Below are positions 3,246 through 39,429 of a stretch of 64,000 nt of DNA, one piece after another. Below the pieces are notes generated by a model. The model ran no database searches. It saw only the letters and a program-made list of their open reading frames with translations, and was not told the origin of the DNA. The stretch comes from Candidatus Kuenenia stuttgartensis (GTDB lineage Bacteria; Planctomycetota; Phycisphaerae; Phycisphaerales; SM1A02), in NCBI GenBank assembly GCA_945902075.1, contig CAMDMA010000004.1, positions 62,001-126,000 of the forward strand, in the 5' to 3' direction. Position 1 is the stretch's first letter. Each line of letters starts with the position of its first letter. The translations under genes were made by a program, and so were the position numbers.

Positions 3246-5642
3246 TCAGTCGTTCTGTGGCCGACGCGGCGCGCTTGATGCTTTGAGCGTGACATCGATC
3301 TCAACTTCTTTCCCATCGCGGAGCACACGAATCTTCGCGATATCCCCAGGTTTCGACGCACGCAACTTCGCCATCATGTCGGCGGTTGAGCCGAGTGAGT
3401 CACCGTTCCAAGAGAGCATCACATCACCGGCCTTGATGCCCGCGTCTGCAGCGCTTGTATCCGCGCTCACACTCTCGACCATCACGCCGGACTCGCCATC
3501 CTCAGTCATGCCCGGTTGGATACCGAGCCGAACCGGCGCATAGCCGCGATCGTTGCCAGCGGCTGCCGCAGCAGGCGAGGCCCTCGTGCCGAACTCAAGC
3601 CGCTCAGCGCTTGAAGCGCGCCACATCGCAATGTCTTGCACAAGATCGAGAATCGCGGGGACGCCACGCGGATCGACGGTGTAACCCTGATCGCCGGGCT
3701 GGTGGTAGATGTCATGCACGCCACTGAAGAAGAAGAGCACGGGAATTCCCGCACCGTAAAAACTCGCGTGGTCGCTTGGACCGCGGCCACTCGGATCCGC
3801 GTAGATCGTGAGACCGCTCTTCCGAAAGAATGGCGCGAGCGCATCACTGAAACCCTTCGCGCTCTCGACACCACCAACAACGAGTTCGCCCGCGCGCATG
3901 CGGCCGATCATGTCCATATTGAGCATGATGTCGACCTTGTCTGCTGGGATCGACGGACTCTTCACATAGGCCCGCGAACCGTTGAGCCCCATTTCCTCGG
4001 CACTAAACGCAAGAAACAGCACGCTGCGAAGGTTCGCCTCAGGCGCAGCATCGGTGTAAGCCTTCACAAGTCGTCGCGCGAGGACCAGCATCCCGCCTGT
4101 GCCGCTTGCGTTGTCGTCGGCTCCTGGGTGAACCTTGCCGCGATTCCGCGGTTCAGAGCCGAAAGCACCGTATCCAACGTGGTCGTAATGCGCGCCAACA
4201 ACGATCCACTCGTTTGCCAGCGCGCCGCGGCCTGGAAGAATTCCACCGACGTTGTGGGTGATGAACTCGCCGGTATCGGTCTCGACCTTCATCGTCACGA
4301 GGGCGTCATCCTTGAACGCGATCGTGCGGGCAGGCGCATCCTTCGTGCCAGCATCCGCGATGGCGCGAAGCATGGCGAGGTCGCGGCTTTCGGCGTCACA
4401 CGCTTTCACAACTGCGTCGGCAGTTGCGGTGTCGGCAAAGAAGCAAGGAATACCGAGTTGCCCGCCGAGGCTTTCAACACTCATCGCGGTGAGATCAGCC
4501 TTTTTCCCGGCATATCCTGGCGGTTCGGTCACAATAATCGCGGTCGCGCCGCGCGACTTGATCGCACTAAGTTTGGCAGCGAGACTCGACGCGCTTGTGA
4601 ACTTGTCACCGCCCCAAAGGGACTTACCCTCGGGGGTGAGTGGTTCGCCGCGCATCACCAGCACGATGCGGCCATCGAAACGCTCATCGGGCACAAAGCT
4701 CGCATAGCCGTCCTTGCCCGACTCGATTCCATAGCCCACAAACGACACCGGCATTTCCGCGGTGCCGCCACCAGAGTTCCGCATGGCGCGTGTCGATTCG
4801 GGCGCGGTCATGCCGGCGAAAACGAGGGCGCTCGAAGAAATGCTGCGCTCGCGACCCGGAAGCGCAAACGGCTGACGCCATGGATCTTTGGCATTCGCCT
4901 GAGAGCCACTTGCAAACCCTGGCTCAAGCCCGGCCTTTTGCATCCAAAATTCGCAGTACTTCGCCGCGCGCTCAATTCCGTCGCTTCCGGGCACACGCCC
5001 CTCAAACCACGGGTTCGAAAGCGTCTGCACGTGTTGATACCACTCGATCGCATCAGGCCCGAGATCTGCAAGAACCTGCGCGAGTGACGTTGAATTTGGG
5101 TTCACCGCGATGAACGCCTCGTTCGGATTGAAGGTGTAGACATTGACGGAGCCGGGGATGATTTTGCCTTCTGCAGCCGCGGCAGCAGTGGTGCGCTCGC
5201 GGGGCTTCGGGGTGCCCTTCCCAGGCTGCGTCACATCAGAGAAGAGCGCGGAGCCAGTCTTTACTGAGGGCTTTCCCGTGGACTTCGCTGTGGAAGTTGC
5301 TGTGGAAGTTGCTGCGGAAGTTGCCGTGGAAGTTGCTGCGGTCGCGGTGCTCGCCGTCGCGCCTGTGGCGGAGCTTGCGGTCGAATCCGTCGGCGTGGCT
5401 GGCTTCGTGGCTCGCTTCGTGGCCGCCGTCCCGGTCGCAATGGTTGTGGTTGCTGTCGACCCCGACTCGGACGCGGAAACCGCGGGCGACGAAGCGCCGA
5501 CCACGTTCGCCGGTGGGGGCGAATTGAGGGCGCAGGCGGAAAGGACCGCGGCGGCGGCGAGGCCGAGCGCAGAGTGAAACGACGCGCTGAGTCGGCGGGT
5601 CGGAAGAGAGTCGTCACGCAGCGGATCGTTCGCGGTGGGCAT
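3246..5642 (-). CDS. M28-family zinc metallopeptidase lipoprotein with PA and PDZ domains
   Basis: The 798-residue product has a signal peptide ending in LSAC (lipobox), then an Ala/Thr/Ser/Lys low-complexity linker of about 130 residues. A protease-associated-like insert follows (DGRIVLVMRGEPL to IIVTEPPG). The M28 core shows metal ligands in GAHYDHVG, the catalytic glutamates in FLAFSAEEMG, NMDMIG, and the last histidine in HDIYHQPGD. A C-terminal PDZ domain ends the protein (about 90 residues, VMLSWNGDSLGS). M28 enzymes are amino- or carboxypeptidases with two zinc ions; an outer-surface or periplasmic location is inferred. Start 5642 was preferred over an upstream frame opening because it leads straight into the signal peptide and follows a -10-like box. 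Confidence 0.88.
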   Translation of the reverse strand: MPTANDPLRDDSLPTRRLSASFHSALGLAAAAVLSACALNSPPPANVVGASSPAVSASESGSTATTTIATGTAATKRATKPATPTDSTASSATGATASTATAATSTATSAATSTATSTAKSTGKPSVKTGSALFSDVTQPGKGTPKPRERTTAAAAAEGKIIPGSVNVYTFNPNEAFIAVNPNSTSLAQVLADLGPDAIEWYQHVQTLSNPWFEGRVPGSDGIERAAKYCEFWMQKAGLEPGFASGSQANAKDPWRQPFALPGRERSISSSALVFAGMTAPESTRAMRNSGGGTAEMPVSFVGYGIESGKDGYASFVPDERFDGRIVLVMRGEPLTPEGKSLWGGDKFTSASSLAAKLSAIKSRGATAIIVTEPPGYAGKKADLTAMSVESLGGQLGIPCFFADTATADAVVKACDAESRDLAMLRAIADAGTKDAPARTIAFKDDALVTMKVETDTGEFITHNVGGILPGRGALANEWIVVGAHYDHVGYGAFGSEPRNRGKVHPGADDNASGTGGMLVLARRLVKAYTDAAPEANLRSVLFLAFSAEEMGLNGSRAYVKSPSIPADKVDIMLNMDMIGRMRAGELVVGGVESAKGFSDALAPFFRKSGLTIYADPSGRGPSDHASFYGAGIPVLFFFSGVHDIYHQPGDQGYTVDPRGVPAILDLVQDIAMWRASSAERLEFGTRASPAAAAAGNDRGYAPVRLGIQPGMTEDGESGVMVESVSADTSAADAGIKAGDVMLSWNGDSLGSTADMMAKLRASKPGDIAKIRVLRDGKEVEIDVTLKASSAPRRPQND

Positions 5643-5650
5643 AGGTCGAA

Positions 5651-5656
5651 AGCGTA
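5651..5656 (-). promoter_or_regulatory. -10-like box of the M28 peptidase gene
   Basis: On the minus strand, TACGCT preceded by G ends 8 nt before the ATG at 5642. It is one of the recurrent start-proximal boxes of this window. Confidence 0.4.
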
Positions 5657-5779
5657 CCACTCTACGACTGAAACGCTGCGGATTCCCGCATTGGGTTCCT
5701 ATACTCGTCACCTTGCGGAAGACCGCGTCGGTCACCGCGCCCTGCGTCCGCCAGACGCGCCACTTTTGACGAAACCGCG

Positions 5780-8722
5780 ATGCACACCGTGACGACCGCC
5801 CCGACCTCGACCGCCGCCGCCACCACCCTCGGCCCAACCGACACCTTTTACCGGCGTCACATTCCGCACACCGCGACTGAGACAGCGGCGATGCTCGGAA
5901 CCTGCGGCTACACGACGCTCTCTGCGTTCATCTCAGCCGCGATCCCTGCGTCGATCCGCCTCGGCCGTGAACTCGACATCGACGATCCAACGAGGACGGG
6001 CAACTTCGCCGAACGCGGCGAAGCTGAGACGCTCGCAGCGCTCAAAGCTCTCGCGCAACGCAACATCGTAAACCGCTCGTTCATCGGTATGGGCTACACC
6101 GACACGATCGTCCCGGGAGTCATCCTCCGCAATATCCTTGAGAATCCTGCGTGGTACACGGCCTATACGCCCTACCAGGCAGAGGTCGCGCAGGGCCGAC
6201 TTGAGGCGCTCCTCAACTTTCAAACGATGATTTCGGAACTCACGGGCCTTCCGCTCGCCGGCGCGTCGCTCCTCGACGAAGGCACCGCTGCTGCCGAGGC
6301 CATGAATATGTGCAACGCGATTGCCGGCGAATCGCGGGTGAAGTTTTTCGTAGCGGAAGACTGCCATCCGCAGACGATCGCCGTTGTTGAGATGCGGGCG
6401 AAGTGGCTCGGTTTCCAGGTGGTCGTCGGGAACCCGCTCGCGTTTGAGCCGACCGCTGACTACTGCGGCGCGCTCGTTCAGTATCCAACGACTGATGGGC
6501 GCATCGAGTGCTACAAGTCGCTCGCCGCGAAGGCGCATGCACACGGCGCGCTCGTCGTCGCCGCGTGCGACCCACTCGCGCTCGTCGCACTCGCAACACC
6601 CGCCTCTTGGGGCGCGGATATCGCGGTCGGCAGTTCACAGCGCTTCGGTGTGCCCATGGGCTTTGGTGGCCCGCACGCAGCGTTTATCGCGACGAGCGAG
6701 GCCTATGTGCGCAAGCTTCCGGGCCGAATCATCGGCGTTTCCCGCGATTCCCACGGAAATCGTGCGCTGCGCATGGCGATCCAGACGCGAGAGCAGCACA
6801 TCCGCCGCGACAAGGCAACATCCAACATCTGCACCGCGCAAGTGCTGCTTGCCGTGATGGCAGGTATGTATGGCGTGTACCACGGGCCCGAGGGCCTGAC
6901 GAAGATTGCTGATCGCGTTCACCGACTCACGCTGACCCTCGCGCGCGGGCTCGCAAAGCTTGGGCATGATTGCGGCGAAAGCAGCGGAAAGTCCGCGTTC
7001 TTTGACACGCTGCGCATCAAACTCGGTGGAGGCGTCACAACCGCCGCGGTACTCACTGCCGCGGCTGCGCATCGCGTCAATCTTCGCGTTTTCGGCGACG
7101 GAACGCTTGGAGTCACCTTCGATGAAGCAACGACGCTCGCTGAAGTGGATGCACTACTCAAGGTGTTTGCCGGTGGCGGAAAGGCAGTCTCCGCTGCGAG
7201 CGTCGAGGCGACAACCGGCTGCATCCCGAGCGGCTTTGCGCGCACCGCGCCGTTTATGCAGCACGAGGTCTTCAATCGCTACCACGGCGAACACGAGATG
7301 CTTCGCTACATCAATCGGTTGGTGTCGAAAGACCTCAGCCTCGTGCATTCGATGATCACGCTCGGCTCGTGCACCATGAAGCTCAACTCGACAAGCGAGA
7401 TGATCCCGGTGACATGGCCTGAGTTTGGACAAATCCACCCGTTCGCCCCGCGCGAGCAGTGGCAGGGCTACGCGGAGATGTTCCGTACGCTTGAGGCGTG
7501 GCTCTGCGAGGCCACGGGTTTCGCTGCAATGAGTTTGCAGCCGAACGCTGGTTCCCAGGGCGAATACGCAGGAATGCTCGTGATTCGCGCCTACCACGAG
7601 CATCGTGGAGAGGCGCATCGCGATATCTGTCTTATCCCAACCTCTGCGCACGGCACAAATCCTGCGACGGCCGTGGTTGCCGGCATGAAAGTTGTTGCGA
7701 TCGAGTGCGATGCAGAAGGCAACATCGATCTCGCTGATCTCGCGCGCAAGGCCGAGGAGCACTCGAAGAATCTAGGCGCGCTCATGATCACCTACCCGTC
7801 GACGCATGGCGTCTTCGAAGAGGGCATCAAAGATGCGTGCGCAATCATTCATAAGCACGGTGGACAGGTCTACATGGATGGCGCGAATATGAACGCGCAG
7901 GTTGGGCTCACGAGTCCTGGCCACATCGGTGCAGACGTGTGCCATCTCAATCTTCATAAGACCTTCTGCATTCCGCACGGTGGTGGCGGTCCCGGCATGG
8001 GTCCGATTGGAGTCGCTGCACATCTCAAGGACTTCCTTCCCGGCCACCCGGTCGAGCGTCCACTGAGCGCAGGTCGACACGCGATCGGGCCGGTGTCAGC
8101 AGCACCGTACGGCAGTGCGTCGATTCTCGTCATCTCTTGGATGTACATCGCAATGATGGGCGCGAAGGGGCTGCGGCAGTCGACTGAGATCGCGATCCTG
8201 AATGCGAACTACATGGCGACGCGGCTGAAGGGGCACTACAACGTGCTCTACACCAATGCGCACGGCCTGTGCGCGCACGAGTTCATCCTCGACTTCCGCC
8301 CCTTCGACAAGTCGGCGGGCCTCAAGATCGACGACATCGCGAAGCGCATGATGGACTACGGCTTTCACGCGCCAACCATGTCGTGGCCAGTGCCGGGCAC
8401 GCTCATGATCGAGCCAACCGAGAGCGAGTCAAAGGCTGAACTCGACCGCTTCTGCGATGCGCTGATCGCAATCCGTGGCGAGATTCGCGCGATTGAAGAT
8501 GGCAGCGCCGATCGCACCGACAACGTGCTCAAGAACGCGCCGCACACGGTTGGTGCGGTGTCGGGTGATGAGTGGAACCACAAGTACACGCGCACCGAGG
8601 CGGCCTTCCCGGCACCATGGCTGCGCGAGTTCAAGTTCTGGCCGACCGTCGGTCGCGTCGACAACCCATACGGTGATCGCAATCTGGTCTGTGCGTGCGA
8701 GCCGATGAGTTCGTATCGCTGA
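5780..8722 (+). CDS. gcvP: Glycine dehydrogenase (decarboxylating), glycine cleavage P-protein
   Basis: This PLP-dependent P-protein decarboxylates glycine and passes the aminomethyl group to lipoylated H-protein. At 980 residues it is the fused single-chain form, with an N-terminal half from about residue 20 to 450 and a C-terminal half after it. The PLP-binding lysine is in [18 protein letters not shown] (about K727), followed by the usual C-terminal ATRLKGHY and AHEFILD regions. It is transcribed divergently from the M28 gene with 137 nt between starts. Neither gcvT nor gcvH is adjacent, so the partners must be elsewhere. A TATACT sequence at 5700-5705 could be a -10 element giving a leader of about 70 nt; I see no glycine riboswitch fold. 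Confidence 0.95.
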
Positions 8723-12547: not shown

Positions 12548-14437
12548 ATGGCTGTTGCCGACAAGCGCCGTTCCACGCTCCTCGCCACCCTAGGCGTTCT
12601 CATCGCACTCGTTGCGGCGAATACGACTGCGTGGTTTATTCTCCGCGGTGCCCGAATCGATGTCACCGAGGAGAAGCTGTATACGGTTTCGCCCGGCGTC
12701 AACGCCATCGCGGCATCGCTGCCCGAGCCTGTTCGCCTCGAGTTCTATTGGACACGCGAGCAAGGTGCCGATCTTCCGACGGTGCGGGCGTATGCGCAGC
12801 GCGTACAGGAATTTCTCGAGGAAATCGCTGCGTCGAGCGGTGGAAAACTCGAGCTTCGCGTCATCGATCCCGAGCCATTCAGCGAAACAGAAGACATGGC
12901 GCGCGCAGCAGGAATCACGCCGCGAACCCTCGACGCAACCGGCCGCGTGCTGATGTTTGGCCTCGCTATCCGAAGCGCGACCGACAAGATTGAGTCGATC
13001 CCGTTTCTTGACCCCTCGCAAGAAGCGTTCTTGGAATACGAGATTGCGCGACGTATTCTCTCGGTCGGCCGCGACCGTAAATCGATCATCGCGATGCTCT
13101 CAACGATTCCCGAGGAGCGCGCGTTCGATCCGCGCGACCCCACCGCGCGACCAGGAAAGTCAGCGCTCTTTTCGCAACTTGATCTGCTCTATGACGTGAG
13201 ACGCGTCGATCGCGCGAATCCCGTCATTCCGCCCGATGCGAGTGCGCTGCTCGTGATTCAACCGAGAGAACTCGGTGACGCGGCGCTCCGTGCCATCGAC
13301 GCGTGGGCGGTTGAGGGTAAACCGCTTATTGTCTTTGCTGATCCGTGGTGTGAAGCTGATCCAGAGGCGCGCAAACTCGATTACGGTTCGACCGGCGCAG
13401 GGACGACCTACGACCTCGGGCCGCTGCTTGCGCAGTGGGGCGTCGAGATCGATAAGCAGAACGCCGTCGCCGACCTCGGATTTTCAACGCGCATCATGTA
13501 CCGCACGCAGGGCGGGCAAACCATGGAGATGTCGCATCCGGCGTGGCTTTCTATGCGCAAAGAAGCTTTTTCCGCTGACGATCCCGTCACATCGCCCATC
13601 TCACAGATGAACCTCAAAGGCACCGGCGCGATCGGAACCATCCCCGGCAGGAAGACCGAAGTTTCGACGCTGATCTCAAGCACCAAGGACGTGCAGATGA
13701 TTCAGACGCTCAAACTCGGTTTCTTCGGAGAGGTGGATCGACTTGTGCGTGACTTCAAAAGCCTCGGTGTACCAGTGGCCATTGGTGTTCGCATTGGCGG
13801 CGAGATTGAAAGTGCCTACCCCGCTACCGACGGAACGCGTAGCAAAGGACGTGCAAACATCATTCTGATCGCCGATGCCGACATGCTCGACGATATGACA
13901 TGGCTGCAGATCGATCCACAAACTGGCGAATACCGCACGATCGCCGACAATGGCCTCTTCGTTTTCAACGCGTTGGAGCAGGCAACTGGTGACACCAAAC
14001 TGTCGAGCCTCAAGTCGCGCGGCCGATACCAACGGCCGTTTGATCGTGTCGAACAGCTGCGCAAGGACGCGGAGTCGCGCTATCTCGTCCAAGAGCAGGA
14101 GCTTCAAGATCAGATCAAAAAATCGGAGATGCGAATCAACGAATTGCAGCGCGAGCGCGGCGGTGCGGGTGCGGGTGTCGATGCGACTGGCGTACTCGTA
14201 CTGACCCCAGAACAAACGGCAGAGCTCTCGAAGCTCGAAACCACACAGATCGACGCGCGACGCAAGTTGCGTGAAGTGCAGCGCTCACTCCGCGCTGATA
14301 TCGAAAAAACAGGCACGATGCTCATGGTGCTCAATGTGGTGATTTGGCCGCTCGTTGTCGCGTGTATCGCAACGCTCTGGATCTCGATTCGGTACGGCCG
14401 TCAGCGTTCGGCCCCGACAATTTCTGCCGTGAAGTGA
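12548..14437 (+). CDS. GldG-like ABC transporter auxiliary protein
   Basis: The 629-residue protein is of the GldG/ABC-type_uncharacterised group. An N-terminal membrane helix (about residues 12-35) is followed by a periplasmic domain opening with DVTEEKLYTVSPG and VRLEFYWT. A Ser/Gly-poor central region comes next, then a C-terminal coiled coil (about 500-600, with DQIKKSEMRINELQRERG and RKLREVQRSLRADIEK) and a last membrane helix near 605-625. It lies between the permease and the DUF4340 gene in one operon. It is assumed to be an extracytoplasmic partner of the transporter; no catalytic motif is seen. Confidence 0.85.
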   Translation: MAVADKRRSTLLATLGVLIALVAANTTAWFILRGARIDVTEEKLYTVSPGVNAIAASLPEPVRLEFYWTREQGADLPTVRAYAQRVQEFLEEIAASSGGKLELRVIDPEPFSETEDMARAAGITPRTLDATGRVLMFGLAIRSATDKIESIPFLDPSQEAFLEYEIARRILSVGRDRKSIIAMLSTIPEERAFDPRDPTARPGKSALFSQLDLLYDVRRVDRANPVIPPDASALLVIQPRELGDAALRAIDAWAVEGKPLIVFADPWCEADPEARKLDYGSTGAGTTYDLGPLLAQWGVEIDKQNAVADLGFSTRIMYRTQGGQTMEMSHPAWLSMRKEAFSADDPVTSPISQMNLKGTGAIGTIPGRKTEVSTLISSTKDVQMIQTLKLGFFGEVDRLVRDFKSLGVPVAIGVRIGGEIESAYPATDGTRSKGRANIILIADADMLDDMTWLQIDPQTGEYRTIADNGLFVFNALEQATGDTKLSSLKSRGRYQRPFDRVEQLRKDAESRYLVQEQELQDQIKKSEMRINELQRERGGAGAGVDATGVLVLTPEQTAELSKLETTQIDARRKLREVQRSLRADIEKTGTMLMVLNVVIWPLVVACIATLWISIRYGRQRSAPTISAVK

Positions 14438-14446
14438 GGATGCTGC

Positions 14447-15556
14447 ATGAAATCGAAGACCCTCATCGTGGTGCTTGGCATTTCCGCTGCTTCGGTCGCG
14501 GGCGCTTACATGGCGCTTTCACAATCGAAAACCTCGTCGGAAATTGCACGCGGTGCGCAATTTCTCCCTCGAATCGGTGAAATCGCGGCGCAACTCACGC
14601 GTGTCGAGATTGAGCGCGGCATGCAGAAAATATCGCTTGTGCGCGACGGTACGTCGTGGATGCTCGCCTCGAGTGATGGCTATCCGGTGCGCTTCGAAGA
14701 GGTGAAGGGACTTGTCGCCGGTCTTGATGCACTGAAGCTCGATGACCGTATGACTTCGCGCACCGATCGTCATGGAGAACTCGGGCTCGCATGGCCCGAC
14801 GACTCGGGTCGTGGTGCGCGCATTCGGCTTTTCGCGGACAGCGACAAACCTGCGATCGATGTCATTCTCGGCTCGGAACGAGCAAATCCCCGCGGACAGT
14901 TTGTGCGTCGCGCCGACGAGGACCAGTGCTGGCGCGTGTTGGGATCCGTCTCAGTCGATGTCGAGCCACGGCGCTGGGTTGAGGCCGAACTCCTTGCGAT
15001 TCCCGATGGCGAAGTACGTAGTGTCACCTTCGACGGGCTCACGCTTCTCAGTACCGAAAGCGCGGATGGTCGCGTGAGCTACGCGGCGGTCGAGCCGGCG
15101 GCACCGCTTGCAGCACCGGCTTCTATCGACTGGACCGATGCTCGCAAAGCGATTGCAACGCGCACGCTTCCGAACTGGCTTTCGCGGCTTGAACTCGACG
15201 ACGCACGCCGCGCAAAGGGCATCGCACCCGACCCGGCGCTCAGCCTGTCGTACGACATGGTGCGCGGAACGCTCAGGGTGAACGCCGTCCGCGACGGCGA
15301 CAGCGTGTGGATCTCGTTCGAGGCCGCGCCCAAGGAAGGCGCCCCGAGCGCCGACGAGATCAACGCGAAGAAGAAGTACCCCGGCGATCCGTTCATCCCC
15401 GACTGGAAGACGTTCGCTGCCATGCATGCAGGTTGGGAGTACAAGCTCCCCGCGTGGAAGCTGAACTCTCTTGAGGAGGCACGAAACATGCCCGATCCGA
15501 ACGAAGCCTCATCCGCTCCGGCAGAGCCTACGCAACTCCCGAGCGCGCGGGACTGA
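14447..15556 (+). CDS. DUF4340-domain protein, last gene of the Gld-like operon
   Basis: The 369-residue protein has an N-terminal signal anchor and a repeated beta-rich pattern (ARGAQFLPRIGEIAAQLTRVE, then a region with RFFADSDKP-like and FVRRADEDQCWRV segments). This is the DUF4340 arrangement usually encoded next to GldG-like proteins. It follows the GldG-like stop by 9 nt. The tail is Pro/Ala/Ser-rich. Its function is unknown; a periplasmic accessory role to the ABC exporter is inferred from the conserved gene order only. Confidence 0.75.
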   Translation: MKSKTLIVVLGISAASVAGAYMALSQSKTSSEIARGAQFLPRIGEIAAQLTRVEIERGMQKISLVRDGTSWMLASSDGYPVRFEEVKGLVAGLDALKLDDRMTSRTDRHGELGLAWPDDSGRGARIRLFADSDKPAIDVILGSERANPRGQFVRRADEDQCWRVLGSVSVDVEPRRWVEAELLAIPDGEVRSVTFDGLTLLSTESADGRVSYAAVEPAAPLAAPASIDWTDARKAIATRTLPNWLSRLELDDARRAKGIAPDPALSLSYDMVRGTLRVNAVRDGDSVWISFEAAPKEGAPSADEINAKKKYPGDPFIPDWKTFAAMHAGWEYKLPAWKLNSLEEARNMPDPNEASSAPAEPTQLPSARD

Positions 15557-15558
15557 GT

Positions 15559-15909
15559 GTGAGAAGTGCGACTCCTCAGCTCACTTGGATCGACCTTGCA
15601 CGACGCGGGCGGGGCGCCGCGACCACCTCCGCGTCTCCACTGAGCGACACACAAGCCATCACGCTCGGTCGCCTGCTCAGCACGTGGAGTGTGGAGCCCG
15701 ATCTGCCCCTCGTTCGCGTGCACCACGCCCGTCCTACACCGAACGAACGCGCAGGCAGGCACCGATCTCGCTGCGCTATAGCGGCGCTCGGTCTGCTCAT
15801 CGCGACAATTCTCACGGTTTCCACCCATGAGCCGCCGTCTCGCGGATCTCTGCGCGCCCGCGATATGTTCGCGGCGTTTAAGTCGTCCCGAAGCACAGGA
15901 GTTGTTGCG
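15559..15909 (+). other. In-frame membrane-spanning extension upstream of dockerin protein 1
   Basis: A GTG at 15559, 3 nt after the DUF4340 stop, opens 117 codons that run in frame and without a stop into the dockerin gene. The translation gives a charged N-terminal part of about 70 residues, one hydrophobic helix (about residues 72-88, AIAALGLLIATILTV) and a short basic spacer before the ATG at 15910. The same architecture occurs at 33469-33720. It could be a real N-terminal domain (long isoform) that anchors the dockerin protein, or a separately used anti-sigma-like region. Whether it is translated is not proven. Confidence 0.4.
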
Positions 15910-16749
15910 ATGCGCAGTTCTGTCGTTACTGGTGTGTTGTCCGCAGGTCTCGTCGCCGGAGGCGCGCTCGCGCAGGACGCGGTCCAGTGGCGCGTCGAAG
16001 ACGGCGGGAATGGACATTGGTATCGCGGAATCACAAATCAGTCAGGTTGGACATGGACGATTGCTTTCCAAGATGCTCAGACCTACGGCGGTCAACTTGT
16101 CAGTTGTGAAACTGCAGGCGAGTTGAGCTTTGTGATCCAGACGTTTTCCTACAGCCAAGCCCCCTTGCTCTGGCAAGTTCAATCGATCAATCCCGCAGCC
16201 AAGATGGGACCGTGGATTGGTGCCTTGCAAGTGAAAGAGGCAATCGAACCCAACGGAGGCTGGACCTGGCTGACGGGCCTGACTTTCGATCCGCAAGACA
16301 ACGTGAACTGTTGTGGAAACGACTGTTCTGGCGTTCAGGAAGATCGCCTGCACCTTTACGCACAGCAGAGCACTGGATGGACTGTTGCGCTGAATGACCT
16401 CACCGATGATCCGAGCGCCTGTAGTGCGCCGCTTCGCGGTGCAGTTATCGAATGGTCCGCCGACTGCAACTCCGACGGCATCGTCGACTTCGGCCAGATC
16501 CGCGCGGGCGAACTCGAAGACGCCAACACCAACAACATTCCCGACTGCTGCGAACAGGGCGTCGCGTGCAACTGTCCCGCCGACCTTGATGGCAATGGAA
16601 ATGTCGACGCCGTCGACCTTGCTGTCATCCTGAGTAAGTGGGGAACGAACGGCGGCAAGGACTACCCGCAGGCGGATGTCGACGGTTCTGGCGAAATCGA
16701 TGGCGCCGATCTCGCGACCGTCCTCAGCAACTGGGGCCCGTGCCTTTGA
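15910..16749 (+). CDS. Secreted dockerin-type calcium-binding protein 1
   Basis: From ATG 15910 (AGGAG at 15897-15901, 8 nt spacer) the product has 279 residues: a signal peptide ending near ALAQ, an unrecognised beta-rich domain of about 180 residues (WRVEDGGNGHWYRG, NCCGNDCSGVQEDR), and a C-terminal dockerin-like pair of calcium loops (DLDGNGNVDAVDLAVIL and DVDGSGEIDGADLATVL), each closed by a WG motif. Such dockerin tails are common in Phycisphaerae secreted proteins; their partner is unclear because classical cohesins are not seen here. The stop codon lies inside the start of the sigma-like gene, so both are translationally coupled. Confidence 0.8.
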   Translation: MRSSVVTGVLSAGLVAGGALAQDAVQWRVEDGGNGHWYRGITNQSGWTWTIAFQDAQTYGGQLVSCETAGELSFVIQTFSYSQAPLLWQVQSINPAAKMGPWIGALQVKEAIEPNGGWTWLTGLTFDPQDNVNCCGNDCSGVQEDRLHLYAQQSTGWTVALNDLTDDPSACSAPLRGAVIEWSADCNSDGIVDFGQIRAGELEDANTNNIPDCCEQGVACNCPADLDGNGNVDAVDLAVILSKWGTNGGKDYPQADVDGSGEIDGADLATVLSNWGPCL

Positions 16750-17480
16750 CCGACGACCCGTCGCGAGCCGCCGCCGCACGCACGCAGCACTTCCCGACGA
16801 CGTACGCGACGACCCTCATCGATGGCCTGCGAGGCGGAGACGAAGCACTCGCTGATCTCGCGGCGCGAATCATCGAGCGTTACGCGCAGCCGCTCGAGGC
16901 GTACGCGCAAGGTTCGTCACTGCGGGAGATCGCAGAGCCACGCGAACTCGTGCACGGATTCCTCGTCGCGAGGTTCGCCACGCCCACTACGACGCGCGCG
17001 TATCTCGCCGCGTGGAACGCGTCCGGGCTCTCGCTGCGGCGCTGGATGATGAACGGGCTACTTCTCTATGTGCGCGGCCTCGTCCGCGACATGCAGCGCT
17101 CGCGCGAGAAGTCGCTCGATGCCCTGAAAAGTGAAGCAGCCGTGGCAGCGCTCGCGAGCGCCGGACCCAACCCGAGTGCGGCGTTCGAGCAAGCGTGGGC
17201 GCGCGCGATCCTTGCCGAGGCGTGTGCGCAGGTCGAACAATCGCTGCTCGCCGAGGGTCGCGACCGCGCGTGGGAGGTATTCCGCCGCCACACACTCGAT
17301 GGCGTTGCCTACGGCGACCTTTCGGATGACTTCGGCCTCTCACGCCAACAGATGGCCGATCTCGTGCGCGGCGTGACCACACGCCTTCGGACGCGCGTGC
17401 GCGAACTGCTCGACGAAGAAGGCCGCTTTGATGGCGACGAAGGCATCGACGAAATCGTGCGAGTCCTCACCGAACGGTAA
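16740..17480 (+). CDS. Divergent ECF-type sigma-like protein 1
   Basis: This protein of about 246 residues starts at GTG 16740 (or TTG 16746, which forms TTGA with the dockerin stop). The N-terminal half resembles planctomycete ECF region 2 (ELVHGFLVARFA, LSLRRWMMNGLLLYVR). The C-terminal part looks like a region 4 helix-turn-helix (WEVFRRHTLDGVAYGDLSDD, then FGLSRQQMADLVRGV). It is clearly paralogous to the protein at 32793-33485 (shared SSLR.IA..EDLV.GFL..RFA and RRW..NGLLLY patterns). The pairing with a dockerin protein in both places suggests a regulator plus envelope sensor or target. DNA binding and sigma activity are inferred only. Confidence 0.6.
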   Translation: MPLTDDPSRAAAARTQHFPTTYATTLIDGLRGGDEALADLAARIIERYAQPLEAYAQGSSLREIAEPRELVHGFLVARFATPTTTRAYLAAWNASGLSLRRWMMNGLLLYVRGLVRDMQRSREKSLDALKSEAAVAALASAGPNPSAAFEQAWARAILAEACAQVEQSLLAEGRDRAWEVFRRHTLDGVAYGDLSDDFGLSRQQMADLVRGVTTRLRTRVRELLDEEGRFDGDEGIDEIVRVLTER

Positions 17481-32792: not shown

Positions 32793-33485
32793 GTGGTGCT
32801 TCTCGATAATTTTCTAACGACACATCGTACTCGCATCGAAGAGTCGATCGCGCAGGGCGATCACACTGGCGCCGCACGGCATGTCATGGAGCGTGCATAC
32901 GAGCCACTGCTTGTCTATGCACGGCAGTCGAGCCTACGGGGTATCGCTCCTGCTGAAGATCTCGTCAACGGGTTCCTTGCTTCGCGATTCGCGCAGCGCG
33001 ACGACTACCTCGCGCGATGGCTTGCGGCAGAACCGCGCGTTCAACTGCGGCGTTGGCTCGTGAACGGACTTTTGTTGTACGCGCATGAACGCGTCACCGA
33101 AGAGCGTCGCGCGCGCCGCGCCCCTGAACTGGCACAACTGAACGCACAGGTTGAGCCTGCGCCGTGGCGTGCGCTCGAGATCGCATGGCGTGACGGCGTC
33201 TTACAGGCAGCGTGCGATCGCGTGAGTGAGCAGTACGCGCGCGAGGGTCGCCCAGACGCATGGAGACTCTTCACGCGCCATATTTTGGATAGTCGGCCGT
33301 ACCCCGAACTTGAACGGGAGCTTGGGATCCCTGCGCTCTCCGCGCCATCGATGACCCGCACCGTCCTGCGGCGGTTACGCGCTGAGATCGACGCGATCCT
33401 TGCTGAAGAGTTCCGTGATCCTCATGATCGGGCCCGAGAACTCGACGCGATTCTCTTCGACGATGGCCATGACGAACGCGAGTGA
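32793..33485 (+). CDS. Divergent ECF-type sigma-like protein 2
   Basis: The 230-residue paralogue of the protein at 16740-17480 keeps the same core. ARQSSLRGIAPAEDLVNGFL and VQLRRWLVNGLLLYAH lie in the region-2-like half. The C-terminal region-4-like helix-turn-helix is RLFTRHILDSRPYPELERE, then MTRTVLRRLRAEIDAIL. It starts with GTG and ends 17 nt inside the next frame, which codes for the membrane extension of dockerin protein 2. The gene order is reversed relative to module 1, where the dockerin gene comes first. Sigma activity is inferred, not shown. Confidence 0.6.
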   Translation: MVLLDNFLTTHRTRIEESIAQGDHTGAARHVMERAYEPLLVYARQSSLRGIAPAEDLVNGFLASRFAQRDDYLARWLAAEPRVQLRRWLVNGLLLYAHERVTEERRARRAPELAQLNAQVEPAPWRALEIAWRDGVLQAACDRVSEQYAREGRPDAWRLFTRHILDSRPYPELERELGIPALSAPSMTRTVLRRLRAEIDAILAEEFRDPHDRARELDAILFDDGHDERE

Positions 33486-34695
33486 CATACGGCTCAACGC
33501 CCTGTATCGGCGGCGTTTGCGACGTGCGCTGACTGCGGAAGACACAGTACAGCCGCGCGCGCGCACGGTGGCACTCTCTGCTTTTGCCACACTGTTTGTC
33601 GGAACCGCGGGGTTTGCGTGGCATGGCGCGCGGGGTTCGGTTCTTTCGACTGTCACACAGTCCGCTGCGCGCACAACTCGGTTTGTTTCCCTGGCGGAGC
33701 GCGCGGTACATGAGGAGTCGATGAAGATGCAACGAATGGCAACGATTCAGGCGGCCTTGTTCGGCGCCGCAGTGCTCGCATCGGGGGCGCAGGCTCAGAA
33801 CAGTGGCTACGCACGGTTTGACGAAGTGAGTGACACCATTCGAATTCAGGGAAACACGGTGTTTCCGGGAACGGACTGGACCTACGAAGCACGAATTCGC
33901 CTCGATGCGGCGATGCTTGAAAATGGCGTTTTGGGACACATCATTTCCGAGCAGCGGGACTCATCCGAAGACAAGAGTTTCTACATCGCGGATTTGAACC
34001 TTCGAAAAGCGACGATCCGAGGCTTCAACTGCGGAGACCTCGCCAGTCGCCCCATCGATGCTTCACTCGCCGCCGCATGGAGTCACCTCGCCTGGGTTCG
34101 AAGCGGCGCAGTGCTGTCGCTGTATGTCGACGGAACTCTCGTCCAGTCATGGGCAAATCGGCCGAGTTGCTCGACCGACCGGGCAGACTCGTGGATGTCG
34201 ATCGGCATGTTCCGCAACGGGGCTGGCTACATCCCCGGCCCCGTGTTGCCCTCCTTCCTCGGCGACCTCGACTGGATCCGAGTGAGCGCCGGCGCCCGCT
34301 ACATCGCCAACTTCACGCCACCGTACGAGTGTGAAGTCAACGCCGACGCGAACACGCAGCTGCTCCTCAAGTTCAACGAGCCTGCGGGCACCACGACACT
34401 GATCGATGAAAGTCCCAGTCTCTTTGTCTGCGACCTTGGCGTGCCTGTCGCGCCAGGCGTGAAGGCCACGAGCCCCACTCTCGGCAACACGGCCGACGGC
34501 TTTCTCGCGTGCACGCCACCCTGCCTCGGCGACATCGATGAAAACACGCTCGTCGACGGTGTCGATCTTGCGATCGTCCTCGGACGCTGGGGCACGAACC
34601 CGAAGGACTACCCCCGCGCGGACACCAACGGCGACAGCGTCGTCGACGGCGCCGACCTCGCGCAAGTGCTGAGCAACTGGGGCGCGTGTCCGTAA
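33469..34695 (+). CDS. LamG and dockerin protein 2 with membrane-spanning N-terminal extension
   Basis: The full frame gives 408 residues: a basic cytosolic segment (LYRRRLRRAL), one membrane helix (about 34-52), a spacer, and then a second start. ATG 33721 or 33727 follows an AGGAG at 33712-33717 and begins a normal signal peptide (IQAALFGAAVLASGAQAQ). After it come a laminin-G/concanavalin-like domain of about 180 residues (WTYEARIRLDAAM, WSHLAWVRSGAVLSLYVDG) and two dockerin calcium loops ending in NWGACP. The short form of 324 residues is certainly plausible as a secreted protein. The long form would be membrane-anchored with a cytosolic tail able to contact the overlapping sigma-like protein. 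Confidence 0.65.
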   Translation: MTNASDIRLNALYRRRLRRALTAEDTVQPRARTVALSAFATLFVGTAGFAWHGARGSVLSTVTQSAARTTRFVSLAERAVHEESMKMQRMATIQAALFGAAVLASGAQAQNSGYARFDEVSDTIRIQGNTVFPGTDWTYEARIRLDAAMLENGVLGHIISEQRDSSEDKSFYIADLNLRKATIRGFNCGDLASRPIDASLAAAWSHLAWVRSGAVLSLYVDGTLVQSWANRPSCSTDRADSWMSIGMFRNGAGYIPGPVLPSFLGDLDWIRVSAGARYIANFTPPYECEVNADANTQLLLKFNEPAGTTTLIDESPSLFVCDLGVPVAPGVKATSPTLGNTADGFLACTPPCLGDIDENTLVDGVDLAIVLGRWGTNPKDYPRADTNGDSVVDGADLAQVLSNWGACP

Positions 34696-35995: not shown

Positions 35996-36745
35996 ATGAC
36001 TTCCATGGCGGGAAACGAAGAGCGAGGTCGATCTCAGTCACGCACTGAAGTTCCGACCGATCTTCCAAACGAGCTCGATTCGACCAAACCCGGCGAGGAC
36101 GCCGAACGCACACAGCGTCCGCACGACCCGCGCGTGCCAGAGAGTGGCAATGACTATCTGCGCGCGTTGGACCCTGACCTCTACGCAGAACTTCGGGCGA
36201 TCGCGGCCCGCGCACTGCGTGGCGAACCGCGCGCGCACGCTCCAGGCACCACATCACTGGTGCATGATGTTTGGCTTCGACTCGCGCGAAGCGATCGGAA
36301 CCCGGTTAACGACCAGCAACATCTGCTCGCACTTGCGTCGCTCGTTGCCCGTCGTGCACTGATCGATGACGCCCGCGTTCGTATGGCCGACCGACGCGGA
36401 GGCGGCGTACCTCACGCAGTGCTTTCCGAAGACCTCGCCGGGGCACCAATGGAACCGTCGTCCATTCTCTCAATCGATGAACTCCTCACCCGACTCGCTG
36501 AACGACATCCGCGCCAAGCGAAAGCATTGGAAATGCGAATCTTCGGCGCAATCTCCCCAGAGCACATCGGCGTTGCTCTCGGAGTGTCCGCGACGCAAGC
36601 GAAACGTGATGTCGCGTTTGCACGCGCATGGCTCGTGAAACATACCGTCCTCGATGATGAAAAAAGTGCAGGTGCTGAGCCAGACGCCAATGCTGAAACC
36701 AACGCACGCGCGCGGCTCGACGACTCGAAAGTAGATGGCGTATGA
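35996..36745 (+). CDS. ECF-type RNA polymerase sigma factor
   Basis: This sigma factor of about 249 residues is of the planctomycete ECF group (Sigma70_ECF, pfam07638-like). Region 2 is AELRAIAARAL, then TSLVHDVWLRLARSD and LASLVARRALIDDARVRMADRR. Region 4 is LAERHPRQAKALEMRIFGAIS and IGVALGVSATQAKRDVAFARAWL. A variable acidic/Ala-rich tail follows. Start codons at 35996 and 36005 are both possible. It is coupled by ATGA to a Ser/Thr kinase gene, a pairing typical for planctomycetes, where the kinase is assumed to control the sigma factor. Confidence 0.88.
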   Translation: MTSMAGNEERGRSQSRTEVPTDLPNELDSTKPGEDAERTQRPHDPRVPESGNDYLRALDPDLYAELRAIAARALRGEPRAHAPGTTSLVHDVWLRLARSDRNPVNDQQHLLALASLVARRALIDDARVRMADRRGGGVPHAVLSEDLAGAPMEPSSILSIDELLTRLAERHPRQAKALEMRIFGAISPEHIGVALGVSATQAKRDVAFARAWLVKHTVLDDEKSAGAEPDANAETNARARLDDSKVDGV

Positions 36746-39429
36746 ATCAACACGATCACAGTGGTGCTTCACGCGACGACGCATCGCGCGAACGCGCCAT
36801 GGTCAGCGTCACGCGTACACAAACTCAAGCTCATAACGACGAATACCTCCGTCTCTCTCGACACGACACGGTCGAACTATTCTCGACGCTCTGCGAGCTC
36901 TCTGCGGAAGATCGGCCGCGTCACATCGCCGATATCGCAAAGGAGAACGTCGAACTCGCGACGCTTCTTGAGGGGCTACTCGCTGCCACACACGAAACGC
37001 GCATTCCGACACGCATCATCACCAACCTCTCGACCGCGCTCAATGAGCCCAGAACTACTGCGCCACTTGAAAAAGGAATGATGCTCGGCGACTTCGAACT
37101 CATCGAGCCCATTGGTCGTGGAGGAATGGGCGAGGTGTGGCGTGCAGAGCAACACAATCCGCGTCGCTCGGTCGCTCTCAAAGTTGTCGCGACGAATGCG
37201 CGGCGCTTCTCATTCCTCGCAGGCCAGCGCGAACGCGAGGCACTCGCTGCGATCCGACATCCGGCAATCGCGACTATTCACGCCGCTGGTGATACAAACG
37301 GATACTCGTGGTTTGCTGTTGAATTGGTGGAAGACGCGCGAGACATCGTGACGGCATCACATGCGTTAACACTTCCGCAGCGCATCGCACTCATCGCCGA
37401 TGTTGCCGACGCAGTTGCGCACGCACACGCTGTTGGTTTCATTCATCGTGATCTCAAGCCCTCGAATGTCCTCATCAGTCGCGATGGACTTCCAAAAGTC
37501 ATCGACTTCGGTATTGCAACACTCGCCACCACATCGAGAACGACTACAGCAACGCGCGACCCACTCGCGCGACTCGGAACACCCGCGTACCTTCCACCAG
37601 AAGCGCTCAGTGATTTCGATGGCAAAACGCAACACGCCGTCATCGACGCACGTGCGGACGTGCGTGCACTCGGTGTCTTGCTGTATCAATGCGTGCATGG
37701 TGTGCTGCCTGCGCCGCTCACCTCAGACAACGCCACGCTCGTCCTCCAGGCACTGCCATCGACGCAGTTCGATCCACCGCCACATGCACCGCGCGCGACG
37801 CGAGGTGACCTCGCTCAGATCATTCTGCGCGCAACCGAGGCTGATCCTGAACGACGCTATCGCACTATGGCTGCCTTCTCGGATGACCTTCGCGCATTTC
37901 TCGCGTCTCGCCCCGTGCAAGCTGCGCCTCGCAGCACCACCGGAAAATTGCTCCTCGCGATGCGCCGCAATCCTCGCGGTTCCACGCTCGCGATCGCGAC
38001 TGCGTTTTCGCTCGTCGCCGCAACTGCAATCAGTACTTGGTATGCCAACTACGCGCGCACCGCAGCGCTCGATGCGACAGCACTCGTCGATCAAACTTCG
38101 GAGACCTACAACGCGTTCCTCGATATCTTTTTTCCAAAGGACTTCAATCCGATCGAAGCGCGTGAACTCACGTTCGCTGAATTGCTCTATCTACGCATTT
38201 CGACCCTAGAAAGACGTGTAGCCCTCACAGCGCCGACGAACATGATCCAGAGCCTCGACGCGCCTGCTCGCATGATGCAATCGGTCTGCCTGACGCTTGG
38301 CTTGCATGAGGGCGCACAACGTTGCGCGCTCGCCCGTGAAATCATCGCCGCACGCGTGGAAGACCCAAGGGGCACTCAATCCTCCACGCGCCATTTTGAA
38401 GAAGCGCTCACGGCGCTTGCCATTGATCGCACTGATCCAGCGGCGCTCGCGACCATCGAACGCGTCATTCCCACAATCCTGTCCGAACGCCGTATCGTTC
38501 GCGCTGCAGGACTCTCGGCGATCGGAACAGTGGACTATCTCTCCGATGTCACGCTCACGGAAAAAGTTGCCGACCTCGTTCTCCAGCAAGATCCATCCAA
38601 TCCTGAGTTTGCGCTAAGTGCCGTATCTCGGCTTGCGCTCAATATGATTCGAACGCTTGCAGCCGGACAGCCGATTGACGCACGAGCGCGCCCGCGCCTC
38701 GCGCGCGTGAACACCATTCTTCGACAGTTTGCTGAAGGAAGTGACCCCGCGATTTCGAGCGAGGCGATTCTCATCGCCAACGCTATCGACCTTGAATTCT
38801 GTCGAATTGACGCCGTCTTGCGCGCCCCCGAACTGTTGCCAGAGTTCATCGAATGCGCCCTCATCGCGGGAATGCCGTTGAGAAAATCTCACGGCACAAG
38901 GGAACAAGGCGAGGTCGGACTCGGCTGGTCTGAAACTATGCCGCTCCGATTGTTACGTGCGGGTCATGTTGAACTCTGCCGCGCGGCGCTTCGTGAGATC
39001 GATCGTCGCGATCCTGTGCTTCGTGCGTCCGATCGCCGAATCGTCGAGTGGAGCCGTGCGGAACTTTTACTCTCAGATGCACAGCAACTCGAAGGCTCGG
39101 CGCGAATCACTGCACTACAGAAGGCGATGCAGATACTCACCGATGCCACTGCACTTGACGTTCTGAACGACATGCGCGTGATCGAAGAAGCAGCGGCGAT
39201 CTATCTGCTTCTAGGACGGTGTGCCTGTGAGCTCGGCGATTTCACTCGCGCCCGCGCGGTTGCGAATCAGCTGCGCGAACTTGCCGTCCACGCCCGATCG
39301 GACCATAGCGATGCCGATCGCGCGCTCATCTTCGAACGCCACGCGGAGTTGGTCGACGGACTCATCGAGGTGACGAGTTCGCATCTTCAACCTTTCAAAC
39401 AATCCCCATCTACGTCATCGCGGCAGTAG
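36742..39429 (+). CDS. Membrane-anchored Ser/Thr protein kinase
   Basis: The 895-residue PknB-type kinase has a Gly loop GRGGMGEVW (about 126-133), catalytic Lys147, HRDLKPSN (235-242), DFG (255-257) and GTPAYLPPEAL in the activation segment. A membrane helix lies at about 413-433, after which a 460-residue extracytoplasmic helical region follows (TPR-like by eye, no clear repeat). The first 110 residues include a sigma-kinase typical helical segment. It is coupled to the preceding ECF sigma factor by ATGA, so the pair probably makes a signalling unit. Confidence 0.9.
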   Translation: MNQHDHSGASRDDASRERAMVSVTRTQTQAHNDEYLRLSRHDTVELFSTLCELSAEDRPRHIADIAKENVELATLLEGLLAATHETRIPTRIITNLSTALNEPRTTAPLEKGMMLGDFELIEPIGRGGMGEVWRAEQHNPRRSVALKVVATNARRFSFLAGQREREALAAIRHPAIATIHAAGDTNGYSWFAVELVEDARDIVTASHALTLPQRIALIADVADAVAHAHAVGFIHRDLKPSNVLISRDGLPKVIDFGIATLATTSRTTTATRDPLARLGTPAYLPPEALSDFDGKTQHAVIDARADVRALGVLLYQCVHGVLPAPLTSDNATLVLQALPSTQFDPPPHAPRATRGDLAQIILRATEADPERRYRTMAAFSDDLRAFLASRPVQAAPRSTTGKLLLAMRRNPRGSTLAIATAFSLVAATAISTWYANYARTAALDATALVDQTSETYNAFLDIFFPKDFNPIEARELTFAELLYLRISTLERRVALTAPTNMIQSLDAPARMMQSVCLTLGLHEGAQRCALAREIIAARVEDPRGTQSSTRHFEEALTALAIDRTDPAALATIERVIPTILSERRIVRAAGLSAIGTVDYLSDVTLTEKVADLVLQQDPSNPEFALSAVSRLALNMIRTLAAGQPIDARARPRLARVNTILRQFAEGSDPAISSEAILIANAIDLEFCRIDAVLRAPELLPEFIECALIAGMPLRKSHGTREQGEVGLGWSETMPLRLLRAGHVELCRAALREIDRRDPVLRASDRRIVEWSRAELLLSDAQQLEGSARITALQKAMQILTDATALDVLNDMRVIEEAAAIYLLLGRCACELGDFTRARAVANQLRELAVHARSDHSDADRALIFERHAELVDGLIEVTSSHLQPFKQSPSTSSRQ

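Follow-up and report, generated by a model that had tools for sequence, protein, structure and literature searches.

Divergent ECF-like sigma genes paired with a frame for a putative membrane regulator and a dockerin protein in planctomycete genomes

The window, meaning the whole analysed stretch of 64,000 nucleotides, contains two modules in which a divergent sigma-like gene overlaps a single long frame encoding a membrane extension, a signal peptide, an outer domain and a C-terminal dockerin. As judged from sequence, the chances that such a module is a pair of a sigma factor and its transmembrane regulator appear about evenly balanced. According to the best reading, which is drawn by analogy, the module would work like SigI/RsgI, with a nested product, a calcium-binding surface protein in anchored or secreted form, and an exchangeable sensor. 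Beyond the first-pass annotation, the analysis adds the lectin domain, the reversed gene order of module 2, the co-variation of sigma and extension, and domain exchange.

In the proposed mechanism, a divergent ECF sigma gene would be paired, by overlap or by adjoining it, with a one-frame partner gene for a short cytosolic part, a membrane helix, a linker, an exported domain and a C-terminal dockerin; the exported domains of the modules include lectin, LamG-like, RCC1-like and others. The upstream start would yield a membrane-linked form of the partner and the internal start a secreted form able to dock to cohesins; three cohesin matches are present in the source genome, and the module dockerins could bind them. 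The sigma factor would be held by the cytosolic part until a ligand is bound or the outer part is lost, and would then be set free, as in SigI/RsgI or FecI/FecR. This explanation fits the stop–start overlaps, the sigma–extension co-variation and the constant anchor. The two hydrophobic segments of the full-length form are awkward for it: if each of them crossed the membrane, the outer domain would end up in the cytosol, so the signal peptide would have to pass through, be cleaved or serve the internal-start product only.

Architecture of the modules and identity of the sigma-like protein

The frame of module 1 (Table 1) opens with GTG 15559 and, by direct reading, is free of stops to 16746, with the stop codon at 16747–16749; the 117-codon extension is in frame with the dockerin protein, as had been annotated. 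The AGGAG, ATG and signal peptide ascribed to the dockerin protein itself can be read directly, and the claimed overlap of the dockerin stop with the sigma-like start is found with both candidate starts. The structure model (13 sequences, mean pLDDT 61.8, mostly 77–91 in the lectin part) consists of two helices, then a lectin fold, then the dockerin. A low-confidence helix, residues 64–87, corresponds to the extension membrane helix, and helix 120–137 to the signal peptide. In Foldseek, C-type lectins, mincle among them, matched the lectin domain (best E 1.7e-5, probability 1.00). The dockerin is C-terminal and lies above the Pfam cut-off for Dockerin_1 (26.1 vs 22.9 bits); against the GC-type dockerin model NF041540, module 1 scored 18 bits, with an NCBI cut-off of 29, and module 2 gave no match. 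A paper search on ‘GC-type dockerin’ returned nothing.

Table 1. Features of the two modules in the window.
Feature	Position	Strand	Remarks
Extension, module 1	15559..15909	+	Cytosolic N-terminal part, one membrane helix, linker (predicted); open frame, 117 codons
Extension membrane helix, module 1	15772..15822	+	CAIAALGLLIATILTVS; hydropathy 2.35, 17 residues
Internal Shine–Dalgarno AGGAG, module 1	15897..15901	+	8 nt 5′ of ATG 15910
Signal peptide of putative secreted form, module 1	15910..15972	+	MRSSVVTGVLSAGLVAGGALA; ends ALA; cleavage site by eye
C-type-lectin-like domain, module 1	16012..16461	+	Model residues 152–301; Foldseek
Dockerin, module 1	16579..16722	+	PF00404 E 9.6e-6, residues 341–388
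Divergent ECF-like sigma gene, module 1	16740..17480	+	Start GTG 16740 or TTG 16746
Sigma-like gene, module 2	32793..33485	+	
Extension with membrane helix, module 2	33469..33720	+	ATG 33469 within 3′ end of sigma gene
Internal Shine–Dalgarno AGGAG, module 2	33713..33717	+	3 nt 5′ of ATG 33721, 9 nt 5′ of ATG 33727
Putative secreted part, module 2	33721..34695	+	Signal peptide, LamG-like domain, dockerin
LamG-like domain, module 2	33829..34236	+	PF13385 E 4.4e-9
Dockerin, module 2	34525..34668	+	PF00404 E 3.7e-4

The helix of module 1 is followed by H-E-PPSRGSL, resembling an H...GSL stretch in relatives. By eye, an L-P-x-I-x-W motif is common to the N-termini of the related loci L054, L058, L059 and L060 and is looser in module 1 and L062. 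Directly 5′ of the extension lie GldG-like and DUF4340 genes (window 12548–15556); DUF4340 relatives are present in loci L054, L055 and L060 too.

The same parts do recur at 32793–34695, but not in the same order, since module 2 has the sigma gene first. Its dockerin scored 21.1 bits in one search, under the Pfam cut-off, and 23.6 bits in another, over it. Elsewhere in the window (35996–39429) lies a further sigma gene, of the classical ECF kind by TIGR02999, whose cut-off it passes; it overlaps a gene judged by eye to be protein-kinase-like.

Neither of the two module sigma copies passes a curated family cut-off; that of module 1 matches TIGR02937 below the cut-off (E 0.0033). Among 37 homologues, 9 contain Sigma70_r4_2 at E ≤ 0.1, the best at 9.3e-6; TIGR02937 is matched at E ≤ 0.001 by 8 of 48. 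The AlphaFold model of the sigma (48 sequences, pLDDT 82.2) matches region 4 of E. coli sigma-E over 69 residues (Z 8.8, 2.0 Å), whole ECF sigma factors (1or7) over 162 residues (Z 8.5, 11.2 Å) and, with its region 2, SigW over 95 residues (Z 7.3, 3.5 Å), all at Z < 13, where the comparison tool advises caution for helical folds. By this model match, the protein has the ECF sigma region 4, which recognises the -35 element. Foldseek with the same model gave 187 matches at E ≤ 10 and none at E ≤ 0.001, and a PDB sequence search with the sigma found one designed protein only (E 0.28). The protein is read, on its model, as a divergent ECF sigma, with region 2 less certain than region 4.

The source genome has 14 matches to this sigma family, which was found in 24 of the 61 genomes searched: all 16 of the genus, 6 of the 21 others of the family and 2 of the 24 others of the order. 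Within the genus, each genome carries 2 to 17 copies. The titled relatives with the family are mostly lake or pond metagenome genomes.

Conservation of the extension and of the internal start

Of the distinct dockerin frames near a sigma gene, 76 can be read on the 5′ side, and in 73 of these the membrane extension is in frame with the signal peptide. Here, a sigma gene counts as ‘near’ at a distance of up to 1.8 kb 5′ of the signal peptide, and a membrane helix means 17 residues with a mean hydropathy of 1.5 or more. The exceptions are L141 (a 1-nt shift), L142 (a TAA between helix and signal peptide) and L184, which has no extension and in which sigma and dockerin may not be partners of each other. 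The expected absence of stops and frame changes from the extension fails in 2 of the 76 frames, L141 and L142. Two of the 73, the second frame of L189 and L199, have a later stop, 5′ of the dockerin. The recount covered 84 sigma-near C-terminal dockerin frames: 70 counted modules, 8 whose 5′ side is cut by a contig or locus end and that were left out (L020, L056, L061, L067, L139, L147, L150 and the first of L197) and 6 others (L141, L142, L184, the second frames of L189 and L197, and L199). The second frame of L197 is in frame to the signal peptide, and its hydropathy, 1.48, is just under the limit. The 70 modules were completed by eye with L066, L108 (the rest masked), L115, L126 and L202; L074, L112, L123, L132 and L044 stand outside the in-frame counts, though their extension and signal peptide are in frame; either the partner lies beyond the sequence taken, or the locus turned up only in the comparison with other genera. 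For 70 of 72 in frame at a chance of 1/3, the binomial P is 4.6e-31, a figure that, like the permutation figures, ignores relatedness.

Differences between extensions at codon positions 1/2/3 amount to 0.289/0.256/0.332 (P = 0.003); of 9 internal gaps in the alignments, 8 have a length divisible by 3. Both results come from 13 partly related pairs. The check for selection suggested earlier came out in favour of it, with dN/dS < 1 in 21 of 24 overlapping pairs, which were chosen by shared peptides, a choice that favours low values. By codon usage, the module 1 extension is the best of the six frames, with a score of about zero (-0.003 per codon, against 0.15–0.38 in the training genes); this near-zero score counts against the proposed explanation, and the extension evolves fast. 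A Pfam search with 44 extensions gave no family matching more than 1 of the 44 at E ≤ 0.1, with no FecR match, no RsgI N-terminal domain and no known anti-sigma family among them, and a PDB sequence search with the extension gave no match.

A Shine–Dalgarno motif of at least 4 nt stands at the internal start in 68 of the 70 intact modules (at least 5 nt in 46), compared with 98 of 942 background ATGs in any frame of the next 90–900 nt (at least 5 nt in 28). The score used for choosing starts rewards the motif, and the test was repeated blind to it: the nearest ATG before the signal peptide then has a Shine–Dalgarno in 51 of 65 modules, and 5 more have no ATG. The motif falls into codon phases 0/1/2 in 23/27/18 modules, that is, it is kept as DNA and not as protein, and for this reason the internal start is probably used.

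After the extension, each of the 70 counted modules has a second hydrophobic segment that resembles a signal peptide. This agrees with a less probable reading in which the extension is a very long signal peptide or a leftover membrane leader, so that only the secreted protein matures; the leader may itself contact the sigma, reporting on export. The two-helix N-terminus, awkward for a simple anchored receptor, speaks for the same reading, whereas the internal Shine–Dalgarno in all codon phases points to separate initiation. The second copy in L109 also speaks against it: its helix is joined straight to a domain that is RCC1-like by eye, with neither signal peptide nor dockerin, which suggests that a simple anchored form exists.

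Pairing with the sigma gene and proposed exchange of the outer domain

The loci of the genus contain 102 distinct sigma copies; loci were taken for about 90 of about 150 listed sigma places, best first, and the true copy number is above 102. An extension–dockerin gene lies downstream of 34 copies, upstream of 19 and on both sides of 4; a further 6 have an upstream dockerin cut by the contig, and for 13 a contig or locus end follows within less than 600 nt. No intact extension–dockerin neighbour accompanies 26 of the 102. Four of these are variant, broken or cut (the second copy in L109, L123, L141 and the first copy in L142), and at least 22 have no such neighbour; the sigma–dockerin pairing is therefore not obligatory. 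The first-pass annotation had tied the sigma to a dockerin neighbour and seen a possible signalling unit in the module: the association recurs across genomes, as do the in-frame extension, the internal start, the sigma-type neighbour and the dockerin, but it is not constant, and the sigma copies without a dockerin neighbour count against it. Among 41 sigma-first modules, the extension start is near the sigma stop in 32, with a 4-nt ATGA/GTGA overlap in 19 of them; 2 have no extension start nearby, and in 7 it lies at 0.7–1.3 kb.

Eight loci belong to other genera. L044 alone of these has the in-frame extension, signal peptide and dockerin, and in L043, L045 and L046 the sigma has a different kind of small protein beside it. 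These three, together with L022, L129, L143 and L146, contain another sigma branch followed by the small protein, of roughly 150–210 codons and near a protein-kinase-like gene in L022; it is perhaps an older partner. In L106, L118 and L138, a small nucleotidyltransferase-like protein (...RVYGS...FDPARSDID...) is encoded 3′ of the sigma, a neighbour that we take to be reminiscent of MNT/HEPN toxin–antitoxin pairs.

The dockerin was rejected as the defining partner of the module: 141 dockerin matches at E ≤ 10 were found in the source genome, and 17 of 18 control dockerin genes elsewhere in it have no upstream in-frame membrane helix. The controls were 20 hand-picked regions with 18 whole and 2 cut frames, one region having no C-terminal dockerin frame. 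Control L240 has a hydrophobic stretch directly 5′ of its start, and the cut control L231 begins at a signal peptide resembling that of L158.

The similarity of the sigma follows that of the extension (rho 0.35, nearest neighbour common in 26 of 63 modules) more than that of the outer domain (rho 0.23, 11 of 63); extension and outer domain, though parts of one polypeptide, give a rho of 0.12 (10 of 63). The outer domain separates extension from sigma in sigma-last modules; there, the nearest neighbours of sigma and extension coincide in 10 of 23 cases, those of sigma and domain in 1 of 23, and those of extension and domain likewise in 1 of 23. The dockerin has its nearest neighbour in common with the sigma in 26 of 63 modules, equal to the extension, and because of this the sigma–extension co-variation may partly reflect linkage and ancestry; the co-variation of the dockerin may be explained by its position. 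In the ‘all’ set of these comparisons, L156, L158, L197 and L201 each contribute the same sigma twice.

Two close pairs of loci combine constant flanks with a changed core in full, few pairs being close enough to show it. The nucleotide identity of L054/L055 is 0.95 in the sigma, 0.97 in the extension, 0.96 in the signal peptide, 0.98 in the dockerin and 0.47 in the lectin core; in L131/L133, the respective values are 0.96, 0.93, 0.98, 0.79 and 0.54, with a few better-conserved islands of the core in a window-by-window comparison. The protein identity in both pairs is 0.98 for the sigma and 0.48 for the domain. In other pairs the domain is the more similar part: 0.88 vs 0.69 for the sigma and 0.45 for the extension in L106/L117, and 0.73 vs 0.43 for the sigma in L062/L117. 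Lectin cores that are 47–54% identical between mostly 80–100% identical flanks suggest that the outer lectin domain is exchanged as a cassette.

In the source genome, a contig ends within 290 nt downstream of 5 of the 14 sigma matches, where about 0.6% would be expected by chance (70 contigs × 290/3.3 Mb). Contig ends 3′ of the sigma fit variable or repeated sequence, other assembly causes being possible. L158 (4054–7726) contains two tandem modules with a near-identical signal-peptide region (0.93–0.97 at the nucleotide level) and different extensions; contig C21 of the source genome ends exactly at a copy of the L158-type signal peptide (L231).

A tentative reading goes further and takes the modules for recombining receptors, in which sensing ectodomains would be exchanged on constant sigma-plus-anchor units and one output re-wired to new inputs. 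The conserved junctions would lie on the signal peptide/WRVEDGGNGHWY side and on the EWSADC.../dockerin side, and from each frame one sensor would arise in two copies, as a membrane receptor and as a secreted protein able to dock. If this is true, sigma families of lake planctomycetes can change their inputs by swapping an outer lectin domain, and one reading frame serves both receptor and secreted product. In that case many sigma factors and dockerin proteins of freshwater Phycisphaerae that lack an explanation would gain a testable function, and modular receptors a model found in nature.

Outer domains that differ between close loci and are common to distant ones, and the multiplicity of sigma copies in each genome of the genus (2 to 17), are also in line with a rather doubtful alternative: the sigma would mainly drive its neighbour, the module would vary an exposed domain as a defence against phage or grazers or in the service of adhesion, and the extension would be an anchor only. 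Against this, a mere anchor would not call for the observed co-variation of sigma and extension, which is closer than that of sigma and domain; moreover, the full pattern of constant flanks and changed core is seen in the two close pairs only.

It is very improbable that a diversity-generating retroelement (DGR) alters the lectin domain. DGRs usually act on the C-type-lectin fold, according to the available text of PMC10907252, and the source genome carries a DGR-like locus, with the one reverse-transcriptase (RT) match of the genome. However, among 33 stretches of the same genome, the window included, the template of this sole RT matched only its own neighbourhood, with no match to the window modules, and the differences between lectin cores extend over most of the core and include indels; the DGR is thus disfavoured as the cause of lectin variation. 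In this locus (L277, G000 contig C22:45000–54896), the RT lies at 5043–6395 on the minus strand, the template at about 4883–5006 and the variable repeat at about 7259–7382, and 19 of the 25 template/variable mismatches fall at template adenines; the target, as judged by eye, combines IPT-like repeats with formylglycine-enzyme-like domains, which have the lectin fold. As improbable is a chance origin of the extension as an untranslated stop-free stretch in G+C-rich DNA, with which its near-zero codon score would agree: the sigma overlaps, gap lengths and codon-position pattern oppose it, and the in-frame count (73 of 76) refutes it for the family.

Comparison with known systems

The combination of an in-frame extension, internal start, sigma neighbour and dockerin is not described in the searched literature, as far as the texts available to the search extend, which agrees with the first-pass statement that such a module was not known from publications. 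In systems of the FecI/FecR type, an ECF sigma stands beside a membrane-spanning anti-sigma regulator. The modules resemble them in the ECF sigma adjoining a putative membrane-spanning regulator, and differ in that no FecR match was found among the 44 extensions.

Planctomycete ECF groups with N-terminal extensions and lineage-specific types have been reported (PMC8103513, available text); the likeness lies in lineage-specific ECF types of the same phylum, whereas the extension there is on the sigma protein and here on the partner. The planctosome comprises cohesin/dockerin proteins of Nemodlikiaceae (CL500-3), freshwater Planctomycetes with a high density of sigma factors (PMC6461901, available text). 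Lake Phycisphaerae with dockerin proteins and many sigma factors are common to that account and the present one, and the MAG ZH-13MAY13-plancto44 named in it is one of the relatives analysed here; the available text of PMC6461901 describes no gene link between sigma and dockerin and no in-frame extension.

In the SigI/RsgI system of Clostridium thermocellum, the sigma gene is in an operon with that of a transmembrane regulator; RsgI has an extracytoplasmic sensor, a membrane helix and an intracellular sigma-binding part, and SigI contains a sigma-2 domain only (PMC6056542, available text). RsgI is cleaved by RseP (PMC12203970, available text). The sigma of the modules, unlike SigI, has a region 4 by its model, and the partner frame differs from RsgI in its internal start, signal peptide, dockerin and exchanged outer domains. 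No RsgI-type domain was recognised in the extensions, and membership of the RsgI family is therefore not claimed. The helix and the sigma neighbourhood of an RsgI-type layout are found in the 70 modules, where a second hydrophobic segment then follows. With operon pairing, a sensor–helix–cytosolic layout that is predicted for the modules, several paralogous pairs and a cellulosome setting as points of likeness in the available texts, SigI/RsgI appears to be the closest working analogue of the module.
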